A DNA stretch of 36,317 nt from NCBI GenBank assembly GCA_020049045.1, contig JAIFLN010000019.1, positions 67,609-103,925 of the forward strand, written 5' to 3'. The notes below the pieces were generated by a model that was not told where the DNA came from, did no database searches, and saw only the letters and a program-made list of their open reading frames with translations. How positions within the stretch are numbered: position 1 is the stretch's first letter; each line of letters begins with the position of its first letter. Made by a program: the position numbers and the translations under genes. This stretch comes from Spirochaetota bacterium. GTDB lineage: Bacteria > Spirochaetota > Spirochaetia > JABEVK01. Shown piece by piece: positions 23,565 to 27,717 of this stretch.

Positions 23565-24953
23565 CTACGGGAGGGAGGCTTGGGCCACGCCCAGGTAGTC
23601 CCCGAGTTCGAACATCATCCAGACAAAAACTCCCGAGGTCAAGAGAACGGTGGCGGTATAGCCAACAGCACCGCCGTAGTACAGAGCCACGGCATGATCG
23701 TAGGTTTTCCGGTTGCCACCCAGGGCATAGAGGTTGACTAAGTTCCACTGCTCCTCTGTCCAGGCAGCGGTGAAAGAAGCGGAGGCCAAGCTGGCTCCGA
23801 AAGCCGCCACAGTCCAGTAAAAACGGTCCTTTGCCTCAAGCACCGGCCTTCGAATGACAGGAAGTACGAGGACTCCGAGGGAGGGTGAGGCTGTGTCAGG
23901 CCCTATCTCCCAGACCAACGTTTCCATTCCGGGAATCTGGGCTCGTACACGGGAAGTGGCCAGAGGGCGGTCAATCGTCTGAGGGGAAGGTCCCAGGTAG
24001 CGGCTGTCGAGGTACAGTTCTGCTCCGCTTGGAAGTGTTTCAAGAACCAGAGGTTCGGCGGCACTCTCGCCAGATTCCAAAGTGATGAGTTTCTGCTTTC
24101 CCTCATCGAGTACAACTGTCATGGTCCTTTCGGGTTTGGCTGGGGACTGAATGACGAACGACAACTCACCTGGTTCCGCAACGTCCGTAGCCCAGGGCAG
24201 CGGATGCCACAGACCCCCAATTTGGACTCGGGTTCCAGAAACGGGCGACTGGATCACCAAACCAGCCCAGGCCCGTCCCAGGAGACTGCTGCGAAACGCT
24301 CCTGAGGCTTCAGTCATCCGTTCATCGGCTTCATCGGCTGCAAAACTTCCCTCCCAGCGGGCCAATACCCGTTCTTCCAAGGTGCTGTAAAACTCAATTC
24401 TGGCCTGGAGGTAACCGGCGACAGAACGGAACTCCCCTGTTACAAGGTAATGGGCTCGACTAAGCTTCAACAGGTCGGAGCGATCTCGATGGATCCAGGG
24501 CAGACCCTCGCGGCCCTGCGCCCAGGCGGCCTTGAGCGGAAGCAACGGGGCAAAGGCCGGTTCAGGAATTGGCTCTTGCTCCAACAGAAGCAACTTAGAC
24601 TCGATGCCCTTCAGAGTCTTTTCTGCACCATCTTTCTCAGAGATGGACAAAACGGAAGTCAGCCGCTTTTTGTCCAGGTCAAGCATCAATCGGCTGGCCT
24701 GCTGCTGCAACGCCCGTCGGGAACTCTCCAGAAATTTCTGACGAAAGGCTGAGGATTCGGCCGAAGTCACCCGATGTCCGGGCAGAGTGTTCCAGCCTCG
24801 CACCAATAGTTGGGGAAGCCGGGACTTCCATTCCCCCTGCCCTTCGAACTCCCCCAGAGCCCAAATCAGTTCCTTGGGTTCAGTCTGGGCTCCGGCAAGG
24901 CTGGTCACAAGAACCAGAAGAACTGCCAGAAGCCATTTGCTAGAGGTCGTCAT
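23565..24953 (-). CDS. Secreted PEGA-domain-like protein
   Basis: Signal peptide MTTSSKWLLAVLLVLVTSLAGAQ; VLETLPSGAELYLDSRYLGPSPQTIDRPLATSRVRAQIPGM resembles PEGA; C-terminal TM segments. Confidence 0.72.
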   Translation of the reverse strand: MTTSSKWLLAVLLVLVTSLAGAQTEPKELIWALGEFEGQGEWKSRLPQLLVRGWNTLPGHRVTSAESSAFRQKFLESSRRALQQQASRLMLDLDKKRLTSVLSISEKDGAEKTLKGIESKLLLLEQEPIPEPAFAPLLPLKAAWAQGREGLPWIHRDRSDLLKLSRAHYLVTGEFRSVAGYLQARIEFYSTLEERVLARWEGSFAADEADERMTEASGAFRSSLLGRAWAGLVIQSPVSGTRVQIGGLWHPLPWATDVAEPGELSFVIQSPAKPERTMTVVLDEGKQKLITLESGESAAEPLVLETLPSGAELYLDSRYLGPSPQTIDRPLATSRVRAQIPGMETLVWEIGPDTASPSLGVLVLPVIRRPVLEAKDRFYWTVAAFGASLASASFTAAWTEEQWNLVNLYALGGNRKTYDHAVALYYGGAVGYTATVLLTSGVFVWMMFELGDYLGVAQASLP

Positions 24954-26071
24954 CCCCGCCGGGTGTCGCCAAGGTGTTCTCCCAGGCAGAGCGGAGATAA
25001 TCCTCCATAAAACCGTCGATGTCTCCATCCATCACATTCTGGACTTGACCAACCTCATGCTTGGTCCGATGGTCTTTGACCATGGTGTATGGCTGAAACA
25101 CATAGCTTCGAATCTGAGAGCCCCACTCGATCGCCTTCTTATCTGCACTGTATTTGGCCATTTCCTTGTCTTGTTCAGCCTTGTAGAACTCGTACAGCCG
25201 ACTCTTGAGAATACTCATGGCCGTTGCTTTGTTCTTGTGCTGGGACCGTTCGTTCTGACACTGAACCACGATACCCGTGGCCAAATGGGTCAAGCGCACC
25301 GCCGAATCGGTCTTGTTGACGTGCTGGCCACCGGCTCCTTGGGCCCGATAGGTATCGATCCGGAGGTCATCGGGTTTGATTTCCACTTCGATGGTATCGT
25401 CAATTACAGGATGGACCGCCACCGAGGTAAAACTCGTGTGCCGTCGTGCAGCCGAATCAAAGGGACTGATCCGGACCATCCGGTGAACACCATGTTCGCT
25501 CTTGAGAAAGCCGTAGGCGAAATCCCCGGTGATTTGCAGCGTGGCTGACTTGACTCCGCCTTCCGCTTCCAGCAGATCTACCACCTCCACCTTGAATTTC
25601 CGACGTTCAGCCCACCTGGTATACATGCGCAGAAGCATGGATGCCCAATCGCAACTTTCTGTCCCTCCGGCTCCCGCATGAATGTCCACAAAAGCGTCGA
25701 ACCGGTCCGCCTCACCCGACAGGAGTTCTAGGACTCGTCGCGATTCGTACTGTTCCCGAACCTTTTTCAGCAGATCCTTGATCTCACTTTCCAAACTCTG
25801 GTCACCTTCGGCCATCGCAAGCTCAAACAAAGCTTGAAGGTCCTCCAGATCCCGAAGCAGAACAACCCACGGGTCAATGCGGTCTTTGAGCCTCTTAATG
25901 CCAGTCATGACTTTCTGAGCTCGCTCCTGATCGGTCCAAAAAGAGGGGTCGTGGGTCATCGACTCCTGGTCGGCGATCTGTTGGCGGATGACGTCGGGGT
26001 CAAAGACGCCTCCAGGTATCACGGATATCTTTTTCGAGAATAGAGATCGGGGATTGAAGGTCTTCGAGCAT
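24940..26071 (-). CDS. prfB: Peptide chain release factor 2 with programmed +1 frameshift
   Basis: ORF 24940..26022 contains GAGGTESCDWASMLLRMY and RAQGAGGQHVNKTDSAVRLTH. A 23-codon 0-frame begins at ATG 26071 (MLEDLQSPISILEKDIRDTWRRL) and ends at CTT-TGA-C (TGA 26002..26000); GGAGG lies 3 nt before CTT. Confidence 0.96.
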
Positions 26072-26088
26072 GAGGAAACTCCTGTGAT

Positions 26089-26361
26089 CTAAGGTTTAAG
26101 GACGGTACGCTTCCACTTCTTTCCCTCAAGAGCCGTAATGACCAGGGTGTTTTCCAAGGGAAACTGATACAGCCTCAGCGTGTCGTAAAAATCCGTGAGC
26201 TTGTCAACTTCGAGTTTCAGCCGGGCCAGATTCTTCTCCGAAAGACTCGAAGTCTCGTAGAGATTTTTCTGTACCTTTCGAAAACCGTACTGGAGCAGGA
26301 GGTGATCCACCTTGATCCGACTGTCTTCGTTACCGTAGTCACAGGCCGCCGAAACAAACAT
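26089..26361 (-). CDS. Orphan Cas2-like (Cas2/VapD-superfamily-like) small protein
   Basis: MFVSAACDYGNEDSRIKVDHLLLQYGFRKVQKNLYETSSLSEKNLARLKLEVDKLTDFYDTLRLYQFPLENTLVITALEGKKWKRTVLKP; Cas2-like D..., R..., YGFR.VQ...YE and D.LR.Y pattern. No cas1 or array in the window. Confidence 0.6.
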   Translation of the reverse strand: MFVSAACDYGNEDSRIKVDHLLLQYGFRKVQKNLYETSSLSEKNLARLKLEVDKLTDFYDTLRLYQFPLENTLVITALEGKKWKRTVLKP

Positions 26362-26367
26362 GGGTCC

Positions 26368-26397
26368 AATGTAGGGCCTGGGGTGTGGCTCTGTCAA
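26368..26397 (-). promoter_or_regulatory. Putative promoter of the Cas2-like-prfB operon, implying a leaderless transcript
   Basis: TTGACA-18 nt-TACATT then only 6 nt (GGACCC) to ATG 26361; overlaps the TTG start used in the ORF track. Confidence 0.5.
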
Positions 26398-26466
26398 ATG
26401 GGATTGATTTTTCGCCTCTCCTGTCGATAAATGAAGAGTACAAATCCTTTTTCGACGGAGTGCTTG

Positions 26467-27717
26467 GTGAAAACGGTCCGAATCGCCCTGTTTTCGATAC
26501 TCGTCTCACTGGTTTCTGCGCTCTGGGCTCAAGAAGGAGTTGCCTACGTGTCGCGGTTAGCGGCTCAAGCAACCGCACAGAGTGTGATCTTGACCTGGAA
26601 AGACGCGGAGGGGTATGCGGGTGCCCAGTACGAGGTCTGGCGATCTGATAAAGAGATTGTGAAAGATAGCTTGTCAAAAGCAAAACTGCTGTCGACGGTG
26701 AAAGCCGGAGTCGAAGCTTTCGAAGATACCACCGTTACAACACCGTCCTTCTACCTCGTACTATTGAAAGACAACCAGGGCAATCGAAAGGGCTTCTATA
26801 TCCCCTATCGGAACAAGACAACGGTTGCTGTAAAACCCGACAGCACAGCGCAAGCAAGCACAGCCAAGATCAAGGTCGGTGCAGTAACCTACGCCAATCC
26901 CCAGGTGCTGATTCCCTTTTCAGCGGTTCCCTCAGATCGGAAACTCGTTGTTTTCCGGCGAGCCTCTGCCATAAGGGCACTGGCAGATCTTAAGGATGCA
27001 ACACTCCTTGGCAATACCACGGGAGCACAGACCCCTTACCATGACACCCCGGCTCCTGGTTTGGAGTTTTATTATGCAATACTCGACGCACAAGCTTTTG
27101 CGGATGGCAGGGCTGATGCGTTTCAAACAGAAAACACCACCGAGTTCCCAGCTGGATTCCCTCTTGTAGCCATACCTGCCGAAATCAAAGCCTCCTCTCT
27201 CGACAGCACCCTCCGACCTGGTATCAACCTCTCAACGAGGGCATTACCGCTTCCAAGACTGCAGTTTGGCACCGAACCAGAATCGGGAGTCCCCTTGGTT
27301 CCCACTGCCTATGAACCCATTCCCTCGACGGTGCTTCCACATGAGGCCGAGGCAGCCCTGCGCCGGTGGTCCAAAGCTACCCCATCCGGGCAGTCCCTCC
27401 CTCCCCAAATCGTTCTCCCTGAGGAACGCTCTGCAGTTCAGGAAGGCGCAGCGCGATACTTGGTTCAAATCCAGAAGGCCTATCTTGAACCTAAGGACTG
27501 GAAAGGTGCGGTGGATGCCCTTGAGAATGTCCTGAAACTAAGCCTGGATGAACGAACTGAGGCCCGGGCACGGTTTTATCTTGGCGAATCTCTTGCAAAC
27601 CTGAAGGAATACAGGAAGGCCTTTGTCGAATTTTTGGCAGCGAGGGTCTCCTACCCGAGCGAGACCCGTCCTTTCCTCGAAGCTCTCTTCAATCTTCTTG
27701 ATTCAGAGACAGACTGA
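26467..27717 (+). CDS. Secreted hypothetical protein (FnIII-like N-terminal region, TPR-like C-terminus), GTG start
   Basis: GTG at 26467 with GGAG 5 nt upstream; VKTVRIALFSILVSLVSALWAQEG signal peptide; VILTWKDAEGYAGAQYEVWRSDK; C-terminal ALENVLKLSLDERTEARARFYLGESLANLKEYRKAFVEFLAA. Confidence 0.75.
   Translation: MKTVRIALFSILVSLVSALWAQEGVAYVSRLAAQATAQSVILTWKDAEGYAGAQYEVWRSDKEIVKDSLSKAKLLSTVKAGVEAFEDTTVTTPSFYLVLLKDNQGNRKGFYIPYRNKTTVAVKPDSTAQASTAKIKVGAVTYANPQVLIPFSAVPSDRKLVVFRRASAIRALADLKDATLLGNTTGAQTPYHDTPAPGLEFYYAILDAQAFADGRADAFQTENTTEFPAGFPLVAIPAEIKASSLDSTLRPGINLSTRALPLPRLQFGTEPESGVPLVPTAYEPIPSTVLPHEAEAALRRWSKATPSGQSLPPQIVLPEERSAVQEGAARYLVQIQKAYLEPKDWKGAVDALENVLKLSLDERTEARARFYLGESLANLKEYRKAFVEFLAARVSYPSETRPFLEALFNLLDSETD

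Follow-up and report, generated by a model that had tools for sequence, protein, structure and literature searches.

We analysed a 36,317-nucleotide stretch of a spirochaete contig (hereafter the window), whose minus strand carries, at 26361..26089, a small cas2-like gene that we named cas2L. It encodes a protein of 90 aa, with its ATG at 26361 and its stop codon at 26091-26089, and translates as MFVSAACDYGNEDSRIKVDHLLLQYGFRKVQKNLYETSSLSEKNLARLKLEVDKLTDFYDTLRLYQFPLENTLVITALEGKKWKRTVLKP. The earlier note that drew attention to this gene had described a Cas2-like order of motifs, and the three segments that it quoted (VSAACDYGNED, LLLQYGFRKVQKNLYE and DTLRLYQF) can all be read in the 90-aa open reading frame; the strand, which the note did not give, is minus. 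The mechanical ORF call starts at a TTG 12 codons upstream, inside the -35 box described below, and the conserved start among relatives of cas2L is the ATG at 26361. The gene is followed on the minus strand by a gap of 17 nt (26072..26088), a distance that the note had right, which contains an AGGAG Shine-Dalgarno sequence for prfB. The second cistron, prfB itself (24940..26071, minus; ATG at 26071), encodes release factor 2 (RF2) with the domains PF03462 and PF00472; these coordinates cover the full reading across the +1 programmed frameshift site TGGAGGCGTCTTTGAC (25999..26014, minus), where the frame joins to full RF2 at CTTTGAC (25999-26005). A divergent gene on the plus strand (26431-27717) has a common intergenic region with cas2L; its product looks secreted and has no Pfam match, and relatives occupy the same place in loci L002-L004.

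cas2L is a genuine gene, and purifying selection on it is strong. Its dN/dS was about 0-0.11 in unsaturated pairs, and a profile of eight relatives found one strong copy in 143 of the 395 genomes of the class, or 68 of 133 genera; an open reading frame with this selection and this many single strong homologues is more than chance. One carrier, G367, also has a weak match, which is the CRISPR Cas2 of that genome.

Upstream of cas2L, a -35 box, TTGACA (26392..26397, minus), was recognized from the sequence and a genome pattern match and is conserved across loci. The -10 box, TACATT (26368..26373, minus), ends 6 nt before the ATG, which would place the start of a leaderless transcript there. A promoter of this TTGACA/TAnnnT type ends 5–8 nt before the cas2L start in 114 of 130 unique loci, whereas dinucleotide shuffles gave 4.2 expected, with a maximum of 9. 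Shine-Dalgarno-like sequences were found at 3/130 cas2L starts, as against 106/116 prfB starts tested. Because a sigma-70-type promoter lies close to the ATG and there is no Shine-Dalgarno sequence, the cas2L mRNA is very probably leaderless, and a leaderless operon joining cas2L with prfB can be predicted with considerable confidence. Across the source genome, the pattern TTGACA-N16-18-TANNNT-N5-7-ATG had 37 sites and the reversed pattern had 0, which suggests that this spirochaete may make many leaderless transcripts. The prfB frameshift site was present in 311/395 genomes, many of them without Cas2L, and therefore has no specific tie to Cas2L; a dependence of Cas2L on the frameshift was rejected on this ground.

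Several lines of evidence assign Cas2L to the Cas2 fold. The Pfam model PF09827 (CRISPR_Cas2) scored 30.8 bits against Cas2L, above the curated cut-off of 23.8, and the equivalog model TIGR01573 scored 23.5 bits, just under its cut-off of 24.5. A six-frame search of the genome with PF09827 returned nothing, cas2L included, and Cas2L is therefore a remote member of the family. PADLOC Cas2 models matched all of the aligned family members (121/121) at E <= 1, and the family profile found Cas2-type chains in the PDB (6k2e at E 1.5e-4); the best PDB sequence matches were 6k2e, annotated as Cas2, 3exc and 1zpw. AlphaFold modelled the monomer at pLDDT 97 with the topology strand-helix-strand-strand-helix-strand followed by two C-terminal strands, and a Foldseek search of the PDB with this model returned Cas2 structures first, at a TM of about 0.67 over about 70 residues. 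An unrelated fold, which the earlier note had named as counting against its proposal, did not emerge from either the profile or the monomer structure checks, and in the Foldseek comparison with Cas2 and VapD that it had recommended, Cas2 was the best match and VapD, a poorer structural match, came only at rank 40. Viral Foldseek matches to the model were weak and provided no lead.

The same ranking bears on the idea that Cas2L is the toxin in a VapD-like toxin-antitoxin system. Cas2L belongs to the same superfamily and is a small basic protein, but prfB stands where an antitoxin gene would adjoin it, no relative was found on plasmids, phages or viral contigs, and VapD ranks low among the structural matches. 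We rejected a VapD-type toxin, as no antitoxin lies beside cas2L, and consider such a role very improbable.

No cas1 was found in the 36-kb window, and cas2L has no CRISPR neighbourhood, the next gene being prfB. The term 'orphan', as used in the earlier note, is apt for the window but not for the genome, which carries on another contig a complete-looking type I-E CRISPR-Cas locus that encodes a Cas1 and a Cas2e of its own (L014 1-8863, contig C26; Cas3, Cas7e, Cas1, Cas2e and probably the rest). A weak positive association between cas1 and cas2L (odds ratio 1.8, p 0.007, uncorrected for phylogeny) would favour the view that Cas2L is a CRISPR Cas2 kept for acquiring spacers in trans, together with a Cas1 encoded elsewhere. 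However, 76 of the 143 cas2L-carrying genomes have no detectable cas1, CRISPR loci in cas2L-carrying genomes have their own Cas2, and a tree (unrooted, 91 columns) split Cas2L from 22 spirochaete CRISPR Cas2 proteins with support of 100/100. The family profile separated the two groups as well, with Cas2L members at 80 bits or more and CRISPR Cas2 encoded beside cas1 in the same phylum at 26 at most. On the strength of the cas1 counts, the tree and the separate type I-E Cas2e of the genome, we rejected a CRISPR origin in trans; already disfavoured, it is scarcely credible. Judged from sequences and the structural model, Cas2L is almost certainly a member of the Cas2 superfamily that is independent of CRISPR.

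Conserved linkage with prfB across spirochaetes, which the earlier note had suggested looking for, is indeed present: prfB is the next gene downstream, on the same strand, in 129/130 genomes whose cas2L loci were read (locus L005 duplicates L021 in the linkage table), and the linkage spans at least 26 family-level groups. The exception, G288, has kept cas2L with its promoter and has prfB on another contig. Seven genomes outside the class have cas2L relatives at 85–101 bits. At these loci (L180-L186) the relatives stand apart from prfB, with none within the stretches read, and most have a Shine-Dalgarno-like sequence. Because cas2L is kept unlinked from prfB in G288 and in the seven genomes outside the class, its product probably acts in trans. 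Searches of plasmids, phages and viral contigs for cas2L relatives gave no match, and mobile spread was rejected for this reason; the absence from mobile elements is consistent with vertical inheritance. Phyla beyond Spirochaetota were covered by one contig scan with a single Cas2L protein, and the family may also occur there.

Losses of cas2L occur without replacement. Nothing Cas2-like was found upstream of prfB in 20 cas2L-negative loci, nor in the close negatives whose sites were read, and a diverged Cas2L hidden at this position was rejected. In close relatives without Cas2L (L242-L250, L252), the prfB ATG often lies a few nt behind a -10 box, as if a clean deletion had removed the first gene and left prfB leaderless. 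Since many relatives are without cas2L, the gene is dispensable in some lineages and not essential everywhere. About half of the sampled spirochaete genera keep it in first place in the prfB operon, which suggests a housekeeping job.

In other bacteria, prfB adjoins unrelated genes, as in secA-prfB, and linkage alone is therefore weak evidence of shared function. With operon neighbours of prfB so often unrelated elsewhere, transcription may be all that the two genes share, and Cas2L could do something unrelated, such as act as a BPSL1038-like dsDNA nuclease in DNA metabolism, while its gene rides on the common promoter. Some Cas2-fold proteins are DNases (PMC10491678), and the solo cas2L copies without prfB in other classes also speak for such an arrangement. 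A linkage found in 129/130 genomes and at least 26 family-level groups is nevertheless unusually tight for coincidence, and we regard shared transcription as the sole connection as possible but doubtful.

The pattern of conservation within the family offers further clues. At the position of the Cas2 catalytic Asp, 83% of the 121 members have D, 17% have E and 1% (one member) has G; an acidic residue thus ends strand 1 in 99% of them. Every member has E36, K49, D53, Q66, P68 and W83, and 98–99% have D57, D60, R63 and Y65. The invariant residues gather in helix 2, strand 4 and the C-terminal hairpin, not around D8, which suggests a binding surface specific to the family. Binding of protein or RNA would account for this pattern as readily as catalysis would, and because the catalytic position is divided between D and E, nuclease activity cannot be assumed. 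Cas2L proteins are mildly basic, with a median pI of about 8.8.

A non-nuclease, RNA-binding autoregulator of the operon, binding the leaderless start or the region of the prfB frameshift and setting RF2 synthesis, would suit three observations: residues conserved away from the catalytic position, the replacement of D by E at position 8, and the location of cas2L as first cistron before an autoregulated gene. Such a regulator would be hard to square with G288, where cas2L is kept with its promoter and prfB is elsewhere, with the unlinked copies in other classes, or with the retention of the frameshift site in genomes without Cas2L, and we consider it unlikely.

The explanation that we prefer, at a probability of about 0.4, combines a domesticated Cas2L, a leaderless prfB operon and an RNA role alongside RF2. 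Cas2L would be a CRISPR-independent, vertically inherited member of the Cas2 superfamily that has turned into a chromosomal housekeeping gene in spirochaetes. The comparative evidence points to cas2L as the first cistron of a leaderless mRNA, followed by prfB, and to a product that would act in trans. We infer that Cas2L may form a Cas2-type dimer, which might bind RNA, and in most lineages cleave it, on or close to the translating ribosome. Produced in parallel with RF2, Cas2L would take part in the same process, that is, in termination or rescue together with mRNA turnover at stalled stop codons. RNase activity is known for Cas2 and VapD nucleases (PMC11980593, PMC3506569). Our best guess is that Cas2L works in translation alongside RF2 as a Cas2-fold dimer that binds or cleaves RNA; the putative role in RNA or translation, considered on its own, is tentative. 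More speculative is the proposition that spirochaetes fixed a Cas2-superfamily protein early on as a general factor associated with translation, which would bind or cleave RNA and be produced along with RF2 from a leaderless mRNA; the Cas2 fold would then have a role beyond defence, toxins and mobile elements.

Cas2 is best known for defence, and two of its relatives outside CRISPR, VapD and BPSL1038, are known to be nucleases. A single-copy, vertically inherited Cas2-fold family tied to an essential translation gene throughout a bacterial class is a tractable example of a Cas2 relative at work in core cell biology, and it has a bearing on what Cas2 did ancestrally. The family also sets a trap for annotation: Pfam labels Cas2L as CRISPR Cas2, and counts of CRISPR genes in spirochaetes may therefore be inflated. 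Our literature search found no paper linking Cas2 with prfB and none on 'orphan Cas2' with CRISPR, and the suggested housekeeping job of Cas2L appears to be undescribed so far. Other Cas2 homologues outside CRISPR lie near resolvases or relaxases (PMC3506569), a context unlike that of prfB.

Among known non-CRISPR Cas2-fold families, BPSL1038 (PMC10491678) and the VapD-like toxins (PMC11980593) come closest to Cas2L, which is without the defining features of either. Like VapD toxins and VapD-like proteins, Cas2L belongs to the non-CRISPR part of the Cas2 superfamily. Unlike VapD, it has no adjacent VapX, VapW or VapY antitoxin, its neighbours being prfB and the divergent gene; it is chromosomal, with no mobile-element match, and VapD is the weaker structural match to it. 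With the BPSL1038 Cas2/VapD nuclease sub-family it shares being a chromosomal, conserved Cas2-fold protein without CRISPR. BPSL1038, however, has a D(X20)SST active-site motif, whereas residues 29-31 of Cas2L are KVQ (mostly K/Q, V/I and Q in the family alignment), and Cas2L occurs in different taxa, with no prfB link reported for BPSL1038. With CRISPR Cas2 (PF09827/TIGR01573), Cas2L has in common the ferredoxin-like fold and the acidic residue at the end of strand 1. It differs in the absence of a nearby cas1, array or effector, in its score below the TIGR01573 cut-off, and in forming a separate clade with a new invariant motif, K..D..TD.YD..R.YQ.P, and a C-terminal KKW hairpin.
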